A stretch of DNA of 42,255 bases from a bacterium. GTDB taxonomy: Bacteria; Elusimicrobiota; Elusimicrobia; Elusimicrobiales; UBA9959. The notes under the pieces were generated by a model. It was not told where the DNA came from. It worked only from the letters and a program-made list of their open reading frames with translations, and searched no databases. The DNA is taken from NCBI GenBank assembly GCA_021786295.1, contig JAJYNO010000015.1, forward strand, positions 1 to 42,255, written 5' to 3'. The position numbers were made by a program, and so were the translations under genes. Shown here piece by piece: positions 21,185 through 30,204 of this stretch. Position 1 is the stretch's first letter. Every line of letters begins with the position of its first letter.

Positions 21185-22576
21185 TCAGGCCCGCTCGGGT
21201 GGCGGGGACTTGGGCAGCGAGAAGTAGAAAGTGCTGCCCTTTCCCTCCTGGGACTCCACCCAGACCCTGCCCTTGTGGCGGGCCGCGACCTCCCTGGCTA
21301 TCGAAAGTCCGAGGCCGGTGCCGTTGCGCTCGGCGGCCTTGGCGTTGCGGGCGCGGAAGAACTCCTCGAAGATATGCGGCATGTCTTCGGCCGGGACGCC
21401 CATGCCCGTGTCCCTCACGCGTACCAGCACGGACGCCCCCTCGTCGGTTATGTCCATGGAGACCTTCCCTCCCTCCGGCGTGTACTTGACCGCGTTGGCC
21501 AGGAAGTTGGCGATGCTCTCCTCTATGTAGATCTGCGAGCCGTGCATCAGGTCCACGCCAGGCGCTATGCTCCACGACAGCGCTATGTTCTTGGCCTTCG
21601 CGCTGGCCTCCACGTAGCTGACGGCGTTCTCCGCGGTCTTTTTGAGCGAGAAGTCCGCGGTCTCCAGGCCGCGGCTCAGTTTCATGCGCGTTATCTCCAG
21701 CAGGGCCTTGGCGAAAGCGGTCAGCTTGCCGGTGCGCTCGTAGGCGCGGCGGATCAGGCTCTCCTGCCGCGGATCCACCGGGCCCGTCACGCCGGCGAGC
21801 ACCGGGTCCAGGCAGGCCTGGATGGCGGCCAGGTGCTCCTTGATGTCGTGCGTGACGCGCAGCACGTAGTTGCTCTTGATCTTGTCCTTCTCCAGCAGCT
21901 GCAGGTTGGCCTCGCGCAGGCCGGCCTCCTTCTGCCGCAGCTTGGCGGCGATGGAGGAGGCCATATAGACGGAGATGAACAGCGTGCTGGCGAAGGCCGC
22001 GCAGACGCCGGCCAGGTGCAGCAGGTCCCCGCGCAGACAGAGCTGCGGCTGGGAGGCCACGCAGTAGTGGGCCCAGCGGCCGGTGTACTCCATCCCGGCC
22101 ATCAGCAGGAACAGCAGCAGCGCGAAGGTGGCCTGCAGGTAGCTGGCGCGCCTGGACAGCAGGACGCTGGCTATGATCATATGGAAGACGAAATAGTAGC
22201 GGAAGGGGTTCTCTATGCCGCCGGAGAAGTGCAGCAGCGCCGTGAGCGAGACCAGGTCCACCGGGATCTGAGCGTTGGCCAGGCGGTTGGTCAGCTTTTC
22301 CACGCACGGCTCCCGGGTGGCCAGGCAGCGCCTGAAGCGCAGCAGGAACAGCAGGTTGACCGCGCCCAGCGCCGCCGCTATCCCGCAGATCTTCCAGTAG
22401 GGCAGCGCGAGGCGCAGGGCCTTGTCCGCGAAGAGCGCCGCCAGGAAGATGCCGGCCACGGCGAACCAGCGCAGGCGGATGAGCCAGTGAAGGCTCTCCA
22501 CCAGGCTTTCCGCCGTGGCCGTCTCGCCGGGATTATTTCTTTTTAAGGAGGGTTTCGACCTTGACGAGGAGTTCAT
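21185..22576 (-). CDS. Membrane-bound sensor histidine kinase (463 aa)
   Basis: Residues about 30-205 contain roughly six hydrophobic segments forming an integral membrane sensor. A coiled linker leads to HisKA with RVTHDIKEHL (His near 241), then HATPase_c with NFLANAVKYTPEGG, VRDTGMGVP, FEEFFRA and NGTGLGLSIA. The ATG at 22576 lies inside the response regulator gene (44-nt overlap); a GTG at 22501 is an alternative start. The tight overlap marks it as the cognate kinase of the 22533-22922 regulator. It is followed by the LURP-like and rhomboid genes, which suggests an envelope-sensing module. Confidence 0.88.
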   Translation of the reverse strand: MNSSSRSKPSLKRNNPGETATAESLVESLHWLIRLRWFAVAGIFLAALFADKALRLALPYWKICGIAAALGAVNLLFLLRFRRCLATREPCVEKLTNRLANAQIPVDLVSLTALLHFSGGIENPFRYYFVFHMIIASVLLSRRASYLQATFALLLFLLMAGMEYTGRWAHYCVASQPQLCLRGDLLHLAGVCAAFASTLFISVYMASSIAAKLRQKEAGLREANLQLLEKDKIKSNYVLRVTHDIKEHLAAIQACLDPVLAGVTGPVDPRQESLIRRAYERTGKLTAFAKALLEITRMKLSRGLETADFSLKKTAENAVSYVEASAKAKNIALSWSIAPGVDLMHGSQIYIEESIANFLANAVKYTPEGGKVSMDITDEGASVLVRVRDTGMGVPAEDMPHIFEEFFRARNAKAAERNGTGLGLSIAREVAARHKGRVWVESQEGKGSTFYFSLPKSPPPERA

Positions 22577-22922
22577 TGGGCTTCAGCGGCTTCTCGAGAT
22601 AGGCGTCCACCGGCAGCCAGTCCTTGTCGCCGGCCTCGTTCTCGAAATCCAGCCCCGTGCTCTCCTTGATGGCCGTGAGCAGCAGTATCGGGGTGTCCTT
22701 GGCGTCCTTGGTCCCCTTCAGGGCCCGGGCCACTTCGAAGCCCTTGCTCATCGTCTCCATCATCACGTCCAGGATTATCAGGTCCGGCTTGCCGGAAGCG
22801 GCGGCCTTCAGGCCTTCCTCGCCGCTGGCGGCCGTCTTGACCTCGTGCCGGCAGCTCTCGAGGATGATGCGCATGGACTCCACTATATCGGGATCGTCGT
22901 CGATTATAAGTATTTTCGCCAT
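22533..22922 (-). CDS. Single-domain response regulator (129 aa)
   Basis: A receiver domain only: IDDDPD at residues 7-12, phospho-acceptor D52 in IILDVMME, LLTAIKE with the conserved Thr, and LEKPLK with Lys. The start has a GGGGGAGGGA ribosome site. It overlaps the histidine kinase gene by 44 nt, so the two form a two-component pair. There is no DNA-binding output domain, so the response is probably through protein contact. Confidence 0.92.
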   Translation of the reverse strand: MAKILIIDDDPDIVESMRIILESCRHEVKTAASGEEGLKAAASGKPDLIILDVMMETMSKGFEVARALKGTKDAKDTPILLLTAIKESTGLDFENEAGDKDWLPVDAYLEKPLKPNELLVKVETLLKKK

Positions 22923-22950: not shown

Positions 22951-22990
22951 AAAAAAGGACTTGCCCGCCCGGGGGTAGCGGGCGGGCAAG
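22951..22990 (-). terminator. Rho-independent terminator after the FMN-binding protein gene
   Basis: A perfect 12-bp GC-rich stem (22960-22971 with 22979-22990, 7-nt loop) is followed on the minus strand by TCC and six T. It closes the flavinylation operon ending at 23011 and separates it from the two-component operon starting at 22922. Confidence 0.9.
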
Positions 22991-23010
22991 CAGGAGGAAA
23001 CGTGCGCCGT

Positions 23011-23583
23011 TTACTTCGAGAGGTAGTAGTGCTGGTAGAGCACCGCCGCCTCTCTGGCCGCGAAGGCCGCCGCGTTGGTGGAGATGGTGGCGCCGGCCAC
23101 CGCGTCCACGTCCTTGCCGACCTCGAAGGGCGCCTTGCTGTCCTTGCCGAAGAACTGCTTGAGGAAGCTGCGCAGCGAGATCGGGCGGCCGCGCTTCTCG
23201 TTCATCGTGGTGACCGCCATGTTGGTGATCTTGCCGGTCGCGGCGTCCAGTCCGATCGCGAAGCCTATCATGCCCCACTTGCCGGGCTGGTGCTCCATCA
23301 CGGCGACTCCGGTCTTCTTGCCGTCCTTCATGCCGATGTAGAAGTCGAACTCCTTCGGGTCCGGCTCCTTATGGCCGTTGGCCGTGAGAGTGCCGCCGAG
23401 CTCCTTCTTTATGGCCGCCAGGTCCTCCGCGGAGGCCTGTTTCACGACCTTGTCGGTGGTGACGGCGCCGGGAAGCATCTCCTTGATGGCCTTCTGGTCC
23501 GACATGAGCCGTTCGGCCCTGGCGGACATGACGCCGCCGACGACCATCATCAGCGAAGCGGCTGCTATCATTGATTTTCTCAT
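23011..23583 (-). CDS. Secreted FMN-binding-domain protein, covalent flavin carrier (190 aa)
   Basis: A signal peptide (MRKSMIAAASLMMVVGGVMS) leads to an FMN_bind domain. DAVAGATIST matches the flavinylation motif of NqrC/RnfG-type proteins, with Thr near 166 expected to carry FMN by a phosphoester bond made by ApbE. Two ATGs six bases apart occur; AAGGAG is 6 nt before the second (23583) and directly touches the first (23589), so 23583 is the better start. It lies 31 bp after apbE at the end of the operon. Its role is probably a one-domain flavin electron carrier outside the cytoplasmic membrane. Confidence 0.9.
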   Translation of the reverse strand: MRKSMIAAASLMMVVGGVMSARAERLMSDQKAIKEMLPGAVTTDKVVKQASAEDLAAIKKELGGTLTANGHKEPDPKEFDFYIGMKDGKKTGVAVMEHQPGKWGMIGFAIGLDAATGKITNMAVTTMNEKRGRPISLRSFLKQFFGKDSKAPFEVGKDVDAVAGATISTNAAAFAAREAAVLYQHYYLSK

Positions 23584-23614
23584 ACGCATCTCCTTTTTCC
23601 TTGACCGCGCTGAA

Positions 23615-24616
23615 TCAGCTCCCGGAGATGTCCCGGGAGCTGAAGATCTTTCCGTTGGAGTCCACGATGATGTAGCCGATGGCCGGGTACTTCTTCAGGA
23701 ACTCGATGGCCTTGCGCGGCCCCATTACGAACAGCGCTGTGGAGAGGGCGTCCGCCTTGGTGGGGTCCGGCAGCATCACGCTGACGCTCATCGTGCCCCT
23801 GGCCGGGTAGCCGTTGGCCGGGTCCATGATGTGATGATAGCGCACGCCGTTCACTATGAAATAGCGCTCGTAGTCGCCTGAGGTGGAGATGCCGTTCTCG
23901 TCCGGGAAAACCAGGCCGGCCATGTAGCCGTCGTGGCGCGGGTTGCGTACCCCGACCTTCCAGTCCTTCCCCGGGGACGGATGGCCGAACACCTGCACCT
24001 GGCCGCCGCCCAGTATCAGGGCCGAAGTCACGCCCTCGGCCTTAAGGACCTTCTCGGCCTCACCTATCGCGTAGCCCTTGGCTATGCCGCCCAGGTCGAG
24101 GCAGACGTTCTTGTCTGTCGCCGTCACTTCACCGTTCCTGACGATTATCTTACGCCAGCCGGTCTTGGCCAGCGCGTCCCTGACAGCCGCCGGGGAGGGC
24201 ACGGTGCCGGAGGATTTGGAGGTGGTATAGAAGCCCCACAGGTCCTCGAGCGGCTCCATCGTAGGGTCGTAGGTGCCGCCGGTGGTGCGGCTGACCTCGA
24301 GGGCCTCCTTGATGACCGCCACCAGCTCGGGGTCGGTTATCGGGGTCCTGTAATGGTTGAATTGATAGAGGGGACTGTCCGGGCTGGTGCAGTTGAACTT
24401 GACGCCTATCTCCGACATCCTGTCCAGCGCCTTGTCTATGGCGGCCTCGGTCCTGGAGGCTCCGAGTTCGTTGGGCGCCTGTATCGTGCAGATGGTGTCC
24501 ATCGTGAAGCGCGAACGCTTGAGGATCTTGCCCTTGGGCGTGAAGATGTCCTCGCGGCGGACGTAGACCGCTGCCGCGGCGGCGAGGACCATCAGTATTA
24601 TAGCTGCTTTCTTCAT
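23615..24616 (-). CDS. apbE: ApbE FAD:protein FMN transferase (333 aa)
   Basis: Transfers FMN from FAD to a Thr of target proteins outside the cytoplasmic membrane. The N-terminus (MKKAAIILMVLAAAAAVYV) is a signal anchor or uncleaved signal. Family motifs are FTMDTICTIQ, TGGTYDPTMEPLEDLWGF, CLDLGGIAKGYAIGEA, ALILGGGQVQVFG, HHIMDPANGYPA and ADALSTALFVMG. The target is almost certainly the neighbouring FMN-binding protein. The ribosome site is weak; a GC-rich hairpin lies between this gene and the porin gene. Confidence 0.95.
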   Translation of the reverse strand: MKKAAIILMVLAAAAAVYVRREDIFTPKGKILKRSRFTMDTICTIQAPNELGASRTEAAIDKALDRMSEIGVKFNCTSPDSPLYQFNHYRTPITDPELVAVIKEALEVSRTTGGTYDPTMEPLEDLWGFYTTSKSSGTVPSPAAVRDALAKTGWRKIIVRNGEVTATDKNVCLDLGGIAKGYAIGEAEKVLKAEGVTSALILGGGQVQVFGHPSPGKDWKVGVRNPRHDGYMAGLVFPDENGISTSGDYERYFIVNGVRYHHIMDPANGYPARGTMSVSVMLPDPTKADALSTALFVMGPRKAIEFLKKYPAIGYIIVDSNGKIFSSRDISGS

Positions 24617-24627
24617 ATTTAAGTTGG

Positions 24628-24655
24628 CCGTCCGGGCGGCCTCCCGCCCGGACGG
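24628..24655. other. Intercistronic hairpin between porin and apbE
   Basis: A perfect 11-bp GC-rich stem (24628-24638 with 24645-24655, 6-nt loop) without a U-tract. It sits just after the porin stop and before apbE, so it may protect the porin mRNA from 3' decay or reduce downstream expression rather than end transcription. Confidence 0.6.
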
Positions 24656-24666
24656 TTATCCGCGCG

Positions 24667-25815
24667 TCAGAACGTCACGCGCACCGCCGTCTCTATCCTG
24701 TGGAACTTCACGTAGTCCTGGACGTCGTCGCGCCAGTTGCCGTACGTGTAGCCCAGCATCAGCGTGGCCGACGGGGCCATGTCGTAGTTCAGGCCGAAGT
24801 AGGTCGTGTCGTATTTCTCCACCTTCGTGCCGGCGCCGTTGACCGCGTTGTCCACGTAGTTGTCGTAGTGCACCATCGCGGTCAGCTTCTCCGGCAGTAT
24901 GGTGTAGAAGCCCTTCAGGTACATACCGTGGTTGTAGGCGTTGGCTCCGCCGTTAAGGAGCTGGCCGTCGTACTTGTTGGCGCCCATCTCTCCGCGCACC
25001 GTGAAGCGCTTGTAGGCGTACTCCGCGCCGAAGGTCCAGCGGTAGAAGGCCTTGTTCTTCTGGCCCGCCTCGGACGAGCCGATCAGCGTGCCGGTGGAGG
25101 AAGCCACCGCGTCGCCCCAGTAGCCGGTGCCGTAGGAGCCGAAGACCTTCACGGGGCCGAACTGCGGCTCCACGTGCAGCATGACCGAGCGGCTGTTGTT
25201 GTTGTCGCGCGCGTCGCTGCCGTCCCCGTTAAGGACGTACAGGTAGGTCGGCAGCGAGTAGTCGCCGAATTCGAAGGCCTTGTAGGCCTCGAGGCCCGAG
25301 TCGTGCCAGGAGCCGCCGTGCAGCGTGTAGTTGCCGCCGTTGAACTCCTCGCCCCAGAACAGCTCGTGGCCGTAGTCCATCGTGAAGTAGGTGGACATGT
25401 AGCCGGCGCGCAGATGCACTCCGGCGTCGGGCAGGTTGTAGTTCACGGTCAGCTCGTGCAGGCTGGGCGTGATGGTGCCGGAGGTGCTCTTCAGGTTAGC
25501 GCCCAGGGCCTTGCCCAGGCTGGGCGTGGCGCCGGCGCCGGAATTGCCGAACTCCGGGTAGGCGTGCACGGACACGTTGTCGCTGATGTCCTTGGAGACG
25601 TACAGTATGAACGCGTGGCTGGTGAAATAGGTGCCGGCCGAATACCCGCCGGAACCCTTCACTCCCTTGACCATGTAGTCGCCCCACACGTTGTCGGTCA
25701 GCACGGGACCCTTCATATGGCCCCCGACCGTGACCAACGAATCATCCGCCATGGACGGCAGCGCGAACGCGGCGCAAAGCGCGGCGCAGCCGGCCAATGT
25801 AGCTAATTTCTTCAT
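24667..25815 (-). CDS. Outer-membrane porin-like beta-barrel protein (382 aa)
   Basis: The signal peptide is MKKLATLAGCAALCAAFALPSMA. The mature part is a run of alternating strands with aromatic girdle residues (FILYVSKDISDNVSVHAYPEFG, GVHLRAGYMSTYFTMDYGHELFWGEEF in pieces, MLGYTYGNWRDD) and it ends in VRVTF, a terminal Phe as in Bam-assembled barrels. An AAGGAG site precedes the start. Its place inside the flavinylation operon suggests it passes electrons' substrates or redox carriers through the outer membrane, but no cargo can be read from the sequence. No haem motifs are present. Confidence 0.85.
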   Translation of the reverse strand: MKKLATLAGCAALCAAFALPSMADDSLVTVGGHMKGPVLTDNVWGDYMVKGVKGSGGYSAGTYFTSHAFILYVSKDISDNVSVHAYPEFGNSGAGATPSLGKALGANLKSTSGTITPSLHELTVNYNLPDAGVHLRAGYMSTYFTMDYGHELFWGEEFNGGNYTLHGGSWHDSGLEAYKAFEFGDYSLPTYLYVLNGDGSDARDNNNSRSVMLHVEPQFGPVKVFGSYGTGYWGDAVASSTGTLIGSSEAGQKNKAFYRWTFGAEYAYKRFTVRGEMGANKYDGQLLNGGANAYNHGMYLKGFYTILPEKLTAMVHYDNYVDNAVNGAGTKVEKYDTTYFGLNYDMAPSATLMLGYTYGNWRDDVQDYVKFHRIETAVRVTF

Positions 25816-25863
25816 TATCCGCTCCTTTTTTTGTATTTTCCCGGGCTTAGGCCCGAAAAGCCT

Positions 25864-26526
25864 CTATTCCCTGCGGTTCGCCGGAGCCTCTTTGGGGGCC
25901 GTCTTTTCGGCCGGAGGTTCGCCTGCCCGCTCCCTGGCCGGCGCCTCGGCGGGTTCTTCGGCCGCGGCCGGCACTTCGCATTCGCACTTGACCAGCCACA
26001 TCTCGTACAGCGGGACCGCGGTCTCGAACATAACGCAGAAGCCCAGCAGCATGCCGGACAGTATCATCAGGTAGGCCGCGTACGGGGTTATATATTTTAT
26101 CGCCCAGAACGAGCCCACCGCGATTATCACGGCCGCGAACGAGTCCACCAGCACGAACTTCTTGAGCCACTCGGGCAGCGTCGCGGTGAACAGGAAAGGC
26201 AGACCCAGGCAGAACACCATCAGACCCATCGCTATGAAATGCGTGTGGCTGGTGGTGGTCATCGTGGGCAGGTCCATGCCCGGGTAGCCTTCCGGGTCCT
26301 TTTCCGAGCCGCGATAGATGTTGACTATGCCCTGCACCGGGCTGCCGCCGAAAGAGAACTGCACCTTCTGCCCTGGGGTATAGGTCTCCTTCACAATGCC
26401 GGTGACGGTGTTGATGTTGACTATGGCCATCAGGTAGCCGCACGTCATGACCACCAGGAACATAGTGAGGTACAGCTTGACGGTCTTGGGGAGCTCCCCC
26501 AGCCTTATAGCCTTGGTAATGTCCAT
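25864..26526 (-). CDS. Four-helix membrane protein with intramembrane His pair, unknown (220 aa)
   Basis: Four hydrophobic helices are seen: about 17-38, 93-115, 127-147 and 149-172, with a 50-residue extracytoplasmic loop between the first two and an Ala/Pro/Glu-rich tail (about 185-220). SHTHFIAMGLMVFCLGL at the start of helix 2 places two His at the membrane edge, a layout seen in b-haem or quinone-binding membrane proteins. I do not recognise a named family. GGAGAG precedes the start. In the operon it lies between the Gx/EcfT fusion and the porin, so a quinol-to-flavin electron entry role is a reasonable but untested guess. Confidence 0.7.
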   Translation of the reverse strand: MDITKAIRLGELPKTVKLYLTMFLVVMTCGYLMAIVNINTVTGIVKETYTPGQKVQFSFGGSPVQGIVNIYRGSEKDPEGYPGMDLPTMTTTSHTHFIAMGLMVFCLGLPFLFTATLPEWLKKFVLVDSFAAVIIAVGSFWAIKYITPYAAYLMILSGMLLGFCVMFETAVPLYEMWLVKCECEVPAAAEEPAEAPARERAGEPPAEKTAPKEAPANRRE

Positions 26527-26547
26527 TTCTCAGCTCTCCTTTTTTGT

Positions 26548-27783
26548 TCAGGCCGCCGCAGTTCCGGCCGCGTCCTGTTCCCCGGGACGGCACATGCGGG
26601 CGACGACGGCGGCCGCCAGCCTTACCAGCCAGCGCAGCGGCTCCCTTCTCCATCCCGCACGCCCGGAGCCCGAGAGGACGGACCTTACCGCCTCCCTGGC
26701 CCTGGAGGAAAAAGCGGGGATCTCGCCCCATGCCAGCGTTATCACGGCGCCTATCCTGTCAGCGGGAAAGCCGAAACGCCTGAACGGGCGGCCCAGCGCG
26801 CTTATGCCGGCCGCTATCTCGGAAGGCGTGGAATAAAGGTTGAGCAGGAAGGCTATCCACCCCATGGCGGCTATGCGCATGGCGAACACGGAACCGGCCG
26901 CCAGCCCGGCCCGGGTCGCCGTGAGCGGCCCGGCCGAGAATATGACCGCGCCGCCCCTGTCGAAGAAAAGCGGGAAGAAGAAGGAGACCGAGGCCAGCCA
27001 GGCGAGCCTGCGCAGCCTTTTAAAAAGCAGGCGGTAGCTGGCCGCCGGCTGGCGGGTGGCCAGCATGACGGCCAGCAGGCCCGAGGCCAGCAGCAGGAAG
27101 CCGCGCGGGCTGCCGGTGAAGACCGCCAGCAGCAGGGCCGCAAGGGCCAGCGCCATCCTGGCGCCGGGAGAGAGCCTGCCGAAGAACGCGCCGGCTGGAG
27201 CCTGGCGCTCCTCCCGGGGAGCAAGGCCGCCCCCGGAAAGCGCGTAAGCGCCGCCGCCGGAGCGTATAACCTCTGCCGCCACCAGGCCGGTGAGCCAGCC
27301 CATGACTACGCCGCTTATCACCAGCCAGGGGACGAAATAGAAGACGCTGGCGTCGCGCATCATTATAAGATAGGCCAGGAAGAGCTGCGAGGCGTTATGG
27401 ACGACGGCGCTGGCCATGCTGATGCCGACTACGCTCGGCCCAAGCGCGGGGAACCGCAGGGAGAACCGCCACAACCCCCACATCACCAGCGTGCTGGCCG
27501 CGGCGCCGCAGAAGCTGAGGATGAAGCCGGGAGTGAGGAAAGTGCCCAGCACCAGGGAGCCCACCACGGTGCGCAGCAGCGCCACCTCTATGGCCGCCGG
27601 CATGCCGAGCTCGGCCAGCGTTACCAGCGTGACCATGTTGGCCAGGCCCAGGCGCACCCCGGGGATAGGATGCGGGAGCAGCGACTCGGCCACCTGCAGC
27701 ACGCAGGCCGAGGCCACCAGCGCCGCGGCGCGGCGCACGTCGCGGGGGCCTCCGGAAAGCCCGTCAATTAACGACGGCGTCAT
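26548..27783 (-). CDS. Gx transporter domain fused to an EcfT/CbiQ-like membrane domain (411 aa)
   Basis: Residues about 15-170 match the Gx family (heptaprenyl diphosphate synthase component I-like, ECF S-component-like): PHPIPGVRLGLANMVTLVTL and LLRTVVGSLVLGTFLTPGFILSF in sections. From about 215 a second membrane region resembles the EcfT/CbiQ energy-coupling transmembrane component, with LLFKRLRRLAWLASVSFFFP and LNLYSTPSEIAAGISALGRP followed by FPADRIGAVITLAWGEIPAF. Such proteins normally are separate. No ATPase (EcfA) is seen nearby. The start overlaps the NusG-II-like gene by 20 nt and has GGAG at good spacing. Gx proteins recur in flavinylation gene clusters; a role in moving flavin or another cofactor is inferred. 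Confidence 0.8.
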   Translation of the reverse strand: MTPSLIDGLSGGPRDVRRAAALVASACVLQVAESLLPHPIPGVRLGLANMVTLVTLAELGMPAAIEVALLRTVVGSLVLGTFLTPGFILSFCGAAASTLVMWGLWRFSLRFPALGPSVVGISMASAVVHNASQLFLAYLIMMRDASVFYFVPWLVISGVVMGWLTGLVAAEVIRSGGGAYALSGGGLAPREERQAPAGAFFGRLSPGARMALALAALLLAVFTGSPRGFLLLASGLLAVMLATRQPAASYRLLFKRLRRLAWLASVSFFFPLFFDRGGAVIFSAGPLTATRAGLAAGSVFAMRIAAMGWIAFLLNLYSTPSEIAAGISALGRPFRRFGFPADRIGAVITLAWGEIPAFSSRAREAVRSVLSGSGRAGWRREPLRWLVRLAAAVVARMCRPGEQDAAGTAAA

Positions 27784-28159
27784 ATTCCGGCTCCCCCCCT
27801 TCTATCTCCACCAGGAACCTGTTGGGCAGGCAGGCGATGGTTTCGCCCGGCCTGTCAATCCAGCCCTCGTGCATGCAGATCTTATTGGGACAATGCGTCT
27901 CCGATATATGTATGCCGCGGCCGGGCCTCACTTCGACCGCTATCTCCCCGGCCTCGAAATTGAACGACCTCGTGGCCGGGGCGTCAAGCGGCAGCTCCCC
28001 CACCGTCCGGCCGTCATGCACGAGCCTGGCGCGCAGTTCGCCGCCGCCGGCCGACGTCGGAGCGGCGAGCCAGGCGACGGAGGCCAGAACGAGGATGGCC
28101 CCCAGAACATAATCCTGGGGCCTTGGACCAAGCAGCTTTTTAGGGACGCTCTCTTCCAT
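27764..28159 (-). CDS. NusG-domain-II-like extracytoplasmic protein (131 aa)
   Basis: One membrane anchor (YVLGAILVLASVAWLAAP, about 17-34) precedes a small beta domain with the conserved signature CPNKICMHEGWI and CLPNRFLVEIEG, typical of the NusG_II superfamily proteins that co-occur with Gx transporters and ApbE/FMN_bind genes. Three Cys are kept (two in CPNKIC, one in ACLPN). Its likely location is the outer face of the cytoplasmic membrane. It is the first gene of the operon, behind a strong promoter; the leader is very short and no clear ribosome site is seen. Confidence 0.85.
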   Translation of the reverse strand: MEESVPKKLLGPRPQDYVLGAILVLASVAWLAAPTSAGGGELRARLVHDGRTVGELPLDAPATRSFNFEAGEIAVEVRPGRGIHISETHCPNKICMHEGWIDRPGETIACLPNRFLVEIEGGEPEYDAVVN

Positions 28160-28167
28160 CGTGGTGT

Positions 28168-28211
28168 ATTATCTTACCGATATTATCCGATTAAACCGGG
28201 TCCTGTGTCAA
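28168..28211 (-). promoter_or_regulatory. Operon promoter with tandem -10 elements and possible Rrf2 operator
   Basis: On the minus strand TTGACA (28211-28206), an 18-nt spacer and GATAAT (28187-28182) form a good promoter for the flavinylation operon. A second GATAAT (28173-28168) lies 8 nt before the NusG-II ATG. The stretch repeats ATCGG followed by GATAAT twice, which could be a binding site for the Rrf2 regulator encoded just upstream. Confidence 0.7.
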
Positions 28212-28248
28212 GGATAAAAGGATAGATATGCTCCGAAATAGAGACATA

Positions 28249-28274
28249 AAGAAAGCCCCCCTTGCGGAGGGCTT
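28249..28274 (-). terminator. Terminator of the Rrf2 regulator gene
   Basis: A 9-bp stem (28253-28261 with 28266-28274, one G-U, GCAA-type loop) followed on the minus strand by TCTTT. It separates the regulator gene from the operon promoter, so the two are separate transcription units. Confidence 0.75.
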
Positions 28275-28293
28275 CCGTCACGGTCCGGGGCTC

Positions 28294-28689
28294 TCAAAGC
28301 TGCGAGAGCTTCCTGGACTCCAGTATCATCTTGATTATCTTGCCCAGGTCCTCCCAGACGCCGTGTATCCGGCAGGTCTTCAGGAAGTTGCAGGGGGAGC
28401 TGGTCTTGTTGCAGACGACGCGCATGACCGTCTCGCAGCCGCAGACGGCCTGCATGATGTTGTAGACGCTTATCTTGTCGGGGTCCCTGGCCAGGATGAA
28501 GCCGCCCTTCTTGCCCTTCTGGGACCTTACCAGGCCGCGCTTTATCATCTTCTGGAGTATCTTGGAGAGGAACGCCGTAGGTATGCGGGCCCCCCTGGAG
28601 ATATCGCCCAGAACCGAGACCTTGCCGGGATTGTTCTTCAGGTAGACCATGCAGCGCACGGCATAGTCGGTTTCAAGGGTTATCTGCAT
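28294..28689 (-). CDS. Rrf2-family regulator with three Fe-S-type cysteines (131 aa)
   Basis: A winged-helix DNA-binding regulator of the IscR/NsrR/RsrR group. The N-terminal helix-turn-helix spans about residues 1-60 (YAVRCMVYL, RIPTAFLSKILQKM), and KGKKGGFILARDP is the wing. C93, C100 and C106 have the spacing of [2Fe-2S] ligands, with two extra Cys at 83 and 85. It probably senses redox state, iron-sulfur status or NO and controls the operon that starts 135 bp downstream. TATAAT (28703-28698) is 8 nt before the ATG, so the message should be leaderless. Confidence 0.92.
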   Translation of the reverse strand: MQITLETDYAVRCMVYLKNNPGKVSVLGDISRGARIPTAFLSKILQKMIKRGLVRSQKGKKGGFILARDPDKISVYNIMQAVCGCETVMRVVCNKTSSPCNFLKTCRIHGVWEDLGKIIKMILESRKLSQL

Positions 28690-28722: not shown

Positions 28723-30186
28723 CTACCTGGTTAAACGGCTCTCGGCTCGTCGCTTGATCTCCAGCGCAAGGCCTCGGAACATCCAGGCGTGGGCGGGGTA
28801 CAGCCCGTACCAGTACACGCTGCCGGACAGCCCGTGCGGCTCGAAATACGCGGTAAGGCGCAGCGTGGAGGCCGCCTCGCCTCTGGGGACCGCCTCGAAC
28901 TGCAGCCAGCCCTTGCCCGGCAGGCGCATCTCGGCGCGCAAAAGCAGCATGCGGTCCTCGATCACGCGCTCGACGCGCCACGAGTCCAGCGCCTCCCCCT
29001 GCTGGATCAGGTCCGGATGCCTGCGGCCGCGGCGCATGCCGATGCCGCCCACCAGGCGGTCCTGCAGGGCCTTCAGGTACCAGAGGAACTGGCCGTAGAA
29101 CCAGCCGCGCTTCCCGCCTATCCCGGAGAAGACCCTGTAGACGGCGGAGGCGGGCGCGCCGATATCGATGACATGGGCGTGGCTTATCATGCCTTCCCGG
29201 TCCTCGAACGTGTACGGCCTGGCGTAGGAAGGCGTATAGGCCGCCGTCCAGGAGGTCTCTACCTTGTCCTCGCTCAGGCGCACCAGAGCGTACTTTACGG
29301 CGGTGGCGAAATCGAGCGGTTCCTTTTCCGGGAAGAACTCCCGCGCGGCCGAAGTGTCGCAGGTGACCTCGCAGCGCAGGCTCTCCATGAGCGGCTTGGC
29401 GAAGATCCGGGGGATGGGCGTTATCAGGCCTATCATGGCGCTGCAGAGCCCTGGGTCCCAGTCCTTCAGGTCTATGAACCGGCGCTTAAGCCCGCGTATG
29501 TCCGCGTAGGTCCGCAGCAGGTCCCGGTAGCGGTGGCAGGAAGCGCCGCCGACCTCTATCACCCTCCCGGTGGTCCCGGGCCTGTCCAGGCATTTAGCCA
29601 GGTAGTACAGAACGTCGCGGATGGCCAGAGGCTGGGAGCAGCTGTTCAGGCAGCTGAAGGCGGGGATCACCGGCAGGCGCTCCACCAGGTAGCGGATCAG
29701 TTCGAAAGAGACGCTGCCCGAGCCCACTATCATGCCGGCGCGGAACTCGGTGACCGGCACCCCGGTGGAGGCCAGTATCTTCCCGACCTTATGGCGGGAC
29801 AGCAGGTGGCGTGAGAGTTCGGCCCTGTCGCTCCCCGGCCCGCCGAGGTAAATTATGCGCTTGCAGCCCGCCCCGGCCGCCGCCGCCGCGAAATTGCGGG
29901 CGGACTCCTCCTCCACCGCCTCGAAACCGGGCGTATCGGCCATGGAATGTATCAGGTAGTACGCCGCGTCGACGCCCGCGAGCGCTTCGGAGAGCCCCTC
30001 GTTGCGGTAAACGTCGCCCTTCACGATCTCCGTCATCCGCGCCCAGGGACGTCCGGAAAGCCGCTCCGGGTGGCGCGCAAGGCAGCGCACGCGGTAGCCG
30101 CTTATCACGAGGCGCGGAGCCAGGCGCCCGCCTATGTAGCCGGTGGCGCCGGTGACGAGTATGTTCCTTATCTCAGGCCCAGACAT
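28723..30186 (-). CDS. SDR-family NAD(P)-binding protein with C-terminal DUF2867 domain (487 aa)
   Basis: The N-terminal Rossmann domain opens with ILVTGATGYIGGRLAPRL (glycine-rich GxxGxxG) and resembles atypical NmrA/complex-I-subunit-type SDRs (about 8-300). The second half (about 335-480) fits the DUF2867 family usually fused to such SDRs, with a START-like composition (VIDIGAPASAVYRVFSGIGG, GWFYGQFLWYLKALQDRLVGG in part). Its substrate is unknown. ATG at 30186 has GGGGGA 4-5 nt upstream, making it a better start than the GTG at 30198. It lies 18 bp after the AAA+ gene on the same strand. Confidence 0.85.
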   Translation of the reverse strand: MSGPEIRNILVTGATGYIGGRLAPRLVISGYRVRCLARHPERLSGRPWARMTEIVKGDVYRNEGLSEALAGVDAAYYLIHSMADTPGFEAVEEESARNFAAAAAGAGCKRIIYLGGPGSDRAELSRHLLSRHKVGKILASTGVPVTEFRAGMIVGSGSVSFELIRYLVERLPVIPAFSCLNSCSQPLAIRDVLYYLAKCLDRPGTTGRVIEVGGASCHRYRDLLRTYADIRGLKRRFIDLKDWDPGLCSAMIGLITPIPRIFAKPLMESLRCEVTCDTSAAREFFPEKEPLDFATAVKYALVRLSEDKVETSWTAAYTPSYARPYTFEDREGMISHAHVIDIGAPASAVYRVFSGIGGKRGWFYGQFLWYLKALQDRLVGGIGMRRGRRHPDLIQQGEALDSWRVERVIEDRMLLLRAEMRLPGKGWLQFEAVPRGEAASTLRLTAYFEPHGLSGSVYWYGLYPAHAWMFRGLALEIKRRAESRLTR

Positions 30187-30204
30187 GGCGTCCCCCACGG
30201 CCGC

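Follow-up and report, generated by a model that had tools for sequence, protein, structure and literature searches.

The window analysed here, a stretch of 42,255 nucleotides, is contig C4 (JAJYNO010000015.1) of a draft elusimicrobial genome (G000, assembly GCA_021786295.1; 2.3 Mb, 79% complete), and the element in question is a predicted six-gene flavinylation operon that includes an outer-membrane porin and lies downstream of an Rrf2-family regulator. Read along the minus strand, Rrf2 comes first, followed by a terminator and then by the TTGACA promoter of the operon. The operon genes are, in order, NusG_II, a Gx-EcfT fusion, a four-helix membrane protein (here fourH), the porin, ApbE and the FMN_bind carrier; past the strong terminator at their end lie the genes of a receiver protein and a histidine kinase. 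The Pfam matches given for the window proteins exceed the curated cut-off.

28294..28689, minus strand: Rrf2-family regulator with an IscR-like C-x6-C-x5-C-x2-H motif (PF02082, 101.3 bits)
28251..28276, minus strand: terminator-like hairpin 3' of Rrf2 (11 pairs)
28182..28211, minus strand: promoter TTGACA-18-GATAAT of the six-gene operon (11/12 consensus matches)
27764..28159, minus strand: NusG domain II protein, EetA-like (PF07009, 79.6 bits; 20-base overlap with the next gene)
26548..27783, minus strand: fusion of Gx/Hpre_diP_synt_I (EetB-like; PF07456, 123.5 bits) and EcfT/CbiQ (FmnA-like; PF02361, 39.8 bits)
25864..26526, minus strand: fourH, four-helix membrane protein with H94-x-H96 in helix 2 (no Pfam or NCBIfam family)
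24667..25815, minus strand: porin, an outer-membrane barrel resembling general porins, loop motif G95-A-T-P (Foldseek, best E 8.5e-11, to PorB)
23615..24616, minus strand: ApbE, FAD:protein FMN transferase (PF02424, 262 bits, cut-off 25.6)
23011..23589, minus strand: FMN_bind carrier, predicted periplasmic, D162-A-V-A-G-A-T168 (PF04205, 41.2 bits)
22959..22991, minus strand: strong terminator at the operon end (13-pair stem)
22533..22922, minus strand: receiver-domain protein (PF00072, 70.4 bits)
21185..22576, minus strand: histidine kinase with a PilS-like membrane part (PF02518, 99.2 bits; PF25323, 32.4 bits)

A sequence-only reading had described six same-strand genes bounded by a TTGACA promoter and a strong terminator, downstream of Rrf2, and no CxxCH cytochrome among them. 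The open reading frames, the Pfam matches and a site scan agree with this description: all seven frames (Rrf2 and the six operon genes) lie at the same positions on the minus strand, and the CxxCH motif is absent from all six operon proteins.

The operon unites EetA, EetB (PF07456), an EcfT-type FmnA and ApbE, with EetB and FmnA fused. The Hpre_diP_synt_I and CbiQ domains stand on a single protein, which has matches in 19/340 genomes of the phylum and is a candidate for the subunits of an exporter of flavin adenine dinucleotide (FAD), EetB and FmnA in one chain. ApbE has relatives in the PDB (best E 4.5e-50), and a second, distant ApbE domain is found in the same genome within a 603-residue open frame (G000:C27:177475-178287, L002). 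The FMN_bind carrier has no PDB relative at E <= 0.1 and resembles RnfG weakly (59.4 bits, cut-off 205). Its motif DAVAGAT at residues 162-168 fits the [S/T/A]GA[S/T] pattern of flavinylation substrates, and the core [AS]GAT is present in 10/10 aligned carriers.

The porin belongs to no Pfam or NCBIfam family over cut-off and does not match DUF3570. Its predicted structure is of modest confidence (predicted local distance difference test, pLDDT, 59.8; predicted template modelling score, pTM, 0.59), and the model matches the solved general porins PorB, OprP and OmpF. The G-A-T-P of the loop is conserved as [GS]A[ST]P in 8/8 porins of the window type, that is, of the related clusters described below. 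In sequence, this loop has the AGAT core in common with the carrier of the window and is similar to the motif of DUF3570, so that the barrel may have a flavin site of its own. An Asp at position -6 of the flavinylation motif is missing in the porin, and dismissing flavinylation of the porin on this ground was considered and dropped, the residue being present in only 2/10 aligned carriers (window and L026) and thus no criterion.

The fourH protein is predicted to consist of four long helices (pLDDT 85.1), and its only histidines in the window are at positions 94 and 96. It has no Pfam match at E <= 1 to NapH, MsrQ, PepSY, DsbD or DUF4405, and its model has no PDB fold at E <= 0.001, the best being mPGES1 at E 0.38. 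The window fourH matches 23/294 genomes of the phylum, five strongly (its own genome included) and 18 weakly; plasmid-borne relatives were not found.

The porin and fourH had been expected to stay with apbE and FMN_bind in relatives if the genes form a module, and this holds. Among 340 Elusimicrobiota genomes the porin profile matches 12. A strong full-length match is present once in each of eight of them (G000, G120, G204, G241, G320, G221, G029, G012); five more matches are all weak and partial, one of them in G012. The profile was built from these eight genomes, so that their recovery is by construction and the informative part is that no further full-length copy appeared. The porin is accompanied by NusG_II, Gx-EcfT, ApbE and FMN_bind in 8/8 strong-match genomes and by fourH in 7/8, and a homologous porin-FMN_bind-fourH triplet occurs elsewhere. 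In G029, fourH stands behind FMN_bind and nuo genes come after it. The distribution of the operon is patchy: within the window's genus, at least 20 genomes are listed without a Gx-EcfT match.

The exception is G012 (L131), where no fourH match was found within 16 kb. Directly 3' of FMN_bind there is a ferredoxin-like protein (DsrO, 212.7 bits, cut-off 200), and NrfD also lies behind FMN_bind (PF03916, E 6.2e-40). On the upstream side lie another barrel-like protein, a polyprenyl diphosphate synthase (also found in the G029 cluster), a receiver, a kinase, MenA (TIGR00751, 110.6 vs a cut-off of 102.15) and a series of genes readable by eye as nqrF to nqrA, among which NqrB is supported by PF03116. 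The stretch from the nqrA-F run through NrfD, including EetA, EetB-FmnA and the two barrels, is all on one strand (L131 and L177; G012:C1, ~351000-369000). It looks like an apparent full line from NADH through quinone to flavin, a reading qualified by the fact that ApbE is also required by Nqr. NrfD proteins serve as membrane subunits on the quinone side. Because the ferredoxin and NrfD stand where fourH is missing, they may be its functional replacement, which supports indirectly that fourH is the point of electron entry on the quinol side.

Weak fourH matches lead to a second arrangement, which in several loci reads Fur-ApbE-porin-FMN_bind-fourH. In a scan of genomes with this wider form, the diverged porin-FMN_bind-fourH triplet was found at 62 loci, many of which end at contig ends and some of which overlap the genomes of the phylum set. 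They come from Elusimicrobia, KSB1, Ignavibacteria, Nitrospirota, Acidobacteria, Delta- and Gammaproteobacteria, Calditrichota, Bacteroidetes and unplaced bacteria. All loci but one have FMN_bind (61/62), while the porin is found at 57/62, ApbE at 33/62 and Fur at 12/62; at the five loci without a porin the stretch starts at most ~130 bases from FMN_bind, or at fourH. The neighbours include FeoB matches at 8/62 loci (counting the query locus; four of the matches reach only 26-31% identity) and FeoA, DtxR and HemA at 3/62 each. The two types are homologous in both fourH (hhalign probability 96.0, E 3.9e-9) and the porin (92.7, E 4.3e-7). Two wider-type FMN_bind proteins that were tested score below the Pfam cut-off of 22 (18.5 and 17.3), the loop form [AST][GS]A[ST]P occurs in 1/57 wider-family porins, and the profile of the wider fourH has no PDB relative (best E 0.17).

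An alignment of fourH comprises 64 rows, 58 wider and six window-type, with duplicates and some others excluded. H-x-H is present in 58/58 wider and 5/5 close window-type rows, and in L043 too, where it is aligned with an offset. A further histidine 13 residues past H-x-H and a Glu in helix 3 are present in 58/58 wider rows vs 0/5 close window-type rows. By this alignment the window-type fourH is a distinct subtype of the wider family. Three further observations concern wider-type loci. In L053, L057 and L068 (candidate division KSB1) the triplet is flanked by hemA and hemC on one side and by feoA/feoB on the other. Futalosine menaquinone-type genes (MqnA and radical SAM proteins, by eye) lie near a cluster in the window's genus (L030:3088-6073), and NrfD- and NrfC-like matches (28% and 37% identity) are found on the opposite strand in L073:8101-10572.

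The control region was compared among the five loci of the window's genus. TTGACA is conserved upstream of the operon in 5/5, while promoter-like sites (3 vs a shuffle mean of 1.3) and terminator-like sites (11 vs 4.6) show only a mild excess in the region. The Rrf2 gene is probably a transcription unit separate from the operon, because its own terminator at 28276-28251 ends it. It adjoins the operon in 5/8 related loci, every one from the window's genus, and the Fe-S-type cysteines noticed in the sequence-only reading are conserved in the relatives: C-x6-C-x5-C-x2-H is kept in 5/5 same-genus loci, and with an Rrf2 domain, three spaced Cys and a nearby His the protein fits the IscR/NsrR-like iron-sulphur (Fe-S) class by motif. 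Rrf2 may control the operon. As an operator, GGAC-N7-GTCC just upstream of the promoter is a candidate only: it is exact in 3/5 same-genus loci (twice in L027), absent in this form at the promoters of the window and L129, and expected ~0.6 times per 18 kb. The kinase and receiver genes beyond the operon terminator are conserved neighbours in 7/8 loci; the pair was not seen in 15 kb of G221. Upstream of Rrf2, a NAD-binding/DUF2867 protein (window positions 28723-30198) adjoins the operon in 6/8 loci.

Among known systems, cited here from excerpts of the papers, the Listeria monocytogenes locus for extracellular electron transfer (EET; eetA, eetB, fmnA, fmnB, pplA, dmkA/dmkB, ndh2) shares with the window EetA-, EetB- and FmnA-like proteins, ApbE and an FMN_bind carrier. 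The FAD that the ApbE-type FmnB of Listeria uses for flavinylation is exported by EetB and FmnA (PMC9973259). The likeness extends to dmkA/dmkB in the MenA and polyprenyl diphosphate synthase of the G012 cluster and the synthase of the G029 cluster. Unlike in Listeria, EetB and FmnA form one chain here, the predicted periplasmic carrier has a single domain, a porin and fourH or ferredoxin and NrfD are added, and the genes of the window operon include no ndh2, dmkA or dmkB. Flavin EET has already been proposed for Gram-negatives in Ca. Effluviviacota (NUO-DMK-EET-FMN pathway with EetAB, FmnAB and Nuo; PMC11323493), where the excerpts mention no porin and name no fourH-like partner. In the DUF3570/DsbD-type systems DUF3570 itself carries the flavin (PMC8238504), whereas the window has a separate FMN_bind carrier; DUF3570 stands with NusG_II, Gx-EcfT and ApbE in L134, and its G-A-T-P resembles the loop of the window porin. 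EetA and Gx-EcfT with ApbE beside DUF3570 are found at L134:529-5114 and L139:5989-10584 (L134 tested, L139 by eye), together with a thioredoxin-like and a small CxC-ending protein, an arrangement that adds a flavin exporter to the known DUF3570 type. The flavinylation-linked membrane classes described in the excerpts are NapH-, MsrQ-, PepSY-, DsbD- and Nqr/Rnf-like (PMC8238504) and DUF4405/FezC (PMC11334425). MsrQ, PepSY, DUF4405/FezC and NapH-like proteins are likewise membrane partners of a flavinylated carrier, and FezC has small His-bearing helices like fourH. FourH differs from them in having no Pfam match and, in the window type, H-x-H only. No description of this cluster was found in the titles and abstracts searched, a coverage mostly outside subscription journals. 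As far as this literature goes, three features are new: the porin locked to the cluster, the family of fourH and, in this setting, the fusion of EetB with FmnA.

We consider it somewhat probable that the operon represents, in a Gram-negative form, the flavin-based electron-transfer locus of Listeria. From what is known of the protein families, the Gx-EcfT chain would export FAD together with EetA/NusG_II, and ApbE would transfer flavin mononucleotide (FMN) from the exported FAD onto T168 of the periplasmic carrier. From gene context only we infer the other steps and the direction of flow: fourH, as a subunit in the inner membrane, would accept electrons, with quinol as their most likely source, and hand them to the carrier; the dedicated porin would let the soluble partner of the carrier through the outer membrane, this partner being most likely a ferric complex or some other small oxidant; and Rrf2 and the kinase-receiver pair would adjust expression to the iron/Fe-S or redox state. 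Ferric iron as the acceptor is a guess, favoured by the Fe-S type of Rrf2 and by the Fur, DtxR and Feo genes that adjoin wider-family loci, while the lack of FeoB at the window-type cluster speaks against it.

The quinol origin of the electrons, proposed already from the sequence of the window, has gained indirect support from the ferredoxin and NrfD in the place of fourH and from quinone or NADH:quinone genes beside two clusters. The window operon itself contains no NADH:quinone or demethylmenaquinone genes; NuoD lies behind fourH in G029, and NqrB belongs to the nqrA-F-like run in G012. MqnA/MqnD are present in 2/8 cluster genomes (G000 and G120), MenB exceeds its cut-off in 0/10 genomes, and UbiA is found in 24/25. 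MenA, tested in four genomes, is over cut-off in G221, G320 and G012 and below it in G029. A match to the complex-I-type 49 kDa subunit is present in 10/10 genomes, to which related hydrogenases match too. Use of an outside quinone precursor has been reported for L. plantarum, and MenA without an apparent 1,4-dihydroxy-2-naphthoate (DHNA) route suggests that an outside precursor may be used here.

Several points weigh against this electron-transfer locus as proposed. Pfam, NCBIfam and the PDB contain no electron-transfer family or fold that fourH matches, and the second His site of the wider family is absent from the window type. Its replacement by NrfD is based on a single genome, in which the Nqr complex itself could be the client of ApbE. 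Six genomes (G204, G241, G320, G221, G029, G012) have no MqnA/MqnD or MenB over cut-off, which leaves their quinone unsure (MenA alone in three). By a simple pattern, 10/61 wider-family carriers lack the [AST]GA[ST] core. Finally, no terminal reductase, ECF (energy-coupling factor) ATPase or outer-membrane electron carrier turned up, although no search was aimed at them.

Most steps of this mechanism would be common to an assimilatory iron reductase, in which ferric complexes would enter through the porin and be reduced in the periplasm by the flavinylated carrier, with FeoB importing the Fe(II); its purpose would be iron supply and not respiration. The Fur, FeoB, FeoA and DtxR genes beside loci of the wider family, the Fe-S type of Rrf2 and the link between flavinylation and iron uptake in surveys (PMC8238504, in excerpt) speak for this alternative, which we hold to be rather less than probable. 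No window-type cluster has FeoB: strong FeoB_N matches occur in 7/8 genomes on other contigs or, in G012, ~60 kb off, the window's own genome, at 79% completeness, has weak FeoB_N matches only, and the NADH:quinone genes adjoining two clusters have a respiratory look. It is quite improbable that the operon is a mere flavin-supply and flavinylation kit for an Rnf or Nqr encoded elsewhere, with an incidental porin. The colocalisation of eetB most often with Rnf and EET systems (PMC9973259, in excerpt), the weakly RnfG-like carrier and the Nqr run in G012 would agree with it. However, RnfD/NqrB (PF03116) is absent in 7/8 cluster genomes, the window's (79% complete) included, which led us to reject Rnf/Nqr as the client with the exception of G012, where it is present and the nqrA-F-like run lies directly upstream. 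In addition, the porin is locked to the cluster, and the triplet, whose definition does not require Gx-EcfT, is met with again elsewhere.

The sequence-only reading had also taken the operon to be haem-free. HemA (PF05201) and HemB (PF00490) were found in G000, G120 and G012 and not in the other 5/8 cluster genomes, G204, G241, G320, G221 and G029 (97, 90, 97, 91 and 99% complete, respectively), in agreement with the earlier guess and with the third His having been lost. The window-type operon thus seems to occur mostly in organisms that do not make haem, although the window's own genome has both genes, and the diverged fourH has three invariant His. Haem-free working is therefore plausible for the window-type operon. 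The opposite proposal, that fourH is a b-type cytochrome with haem sites formed by dimerisation as in FezC, draws on the three-His pattern of the wider family, on haem binding by FezC and DUF4405 (PMC11334425, in excerpt) and on HemB in 16 of the 17 genomes that have the wider form (checked directly for 15 clusters and by way of named contigs for two). It appears unlikely given the missing third His in the close window-type rows, the HemA- and HemB-lacking genomes (haem is scavengeable) and G114, which has the three-His form and lacks HemB. Taking the haem-free case further, the window-type fourH might be a new class of transmembrane quinol-oxidising subunit that reduces a flavinylated carrier without haem or iron, with a porin maybe flavinylated at [GS]A[ST]P and passing electrons as well as solutes at the outer membrane. 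We regard this as doubtful, the electron-passing porin being its boldest and least supported step. If true, bacteria with two membranes, most of them not making haem, would have a flavin route that spares iron.

Flavin-based EET is known mainly from Gram-positive bacteria, where no outer membrane is in the way. If the operon is the Gram-negative electron-transfer locus proposed above, the porin locked to a flavin exporter, ApbE, a carrier and a small unannotated membrane family suggests how flavin EET may have been fitted into a cell with two membranes. The fourH family, which occurs in several lineages and partly beside iron genes, is a candidate electron-entry protein open to test.

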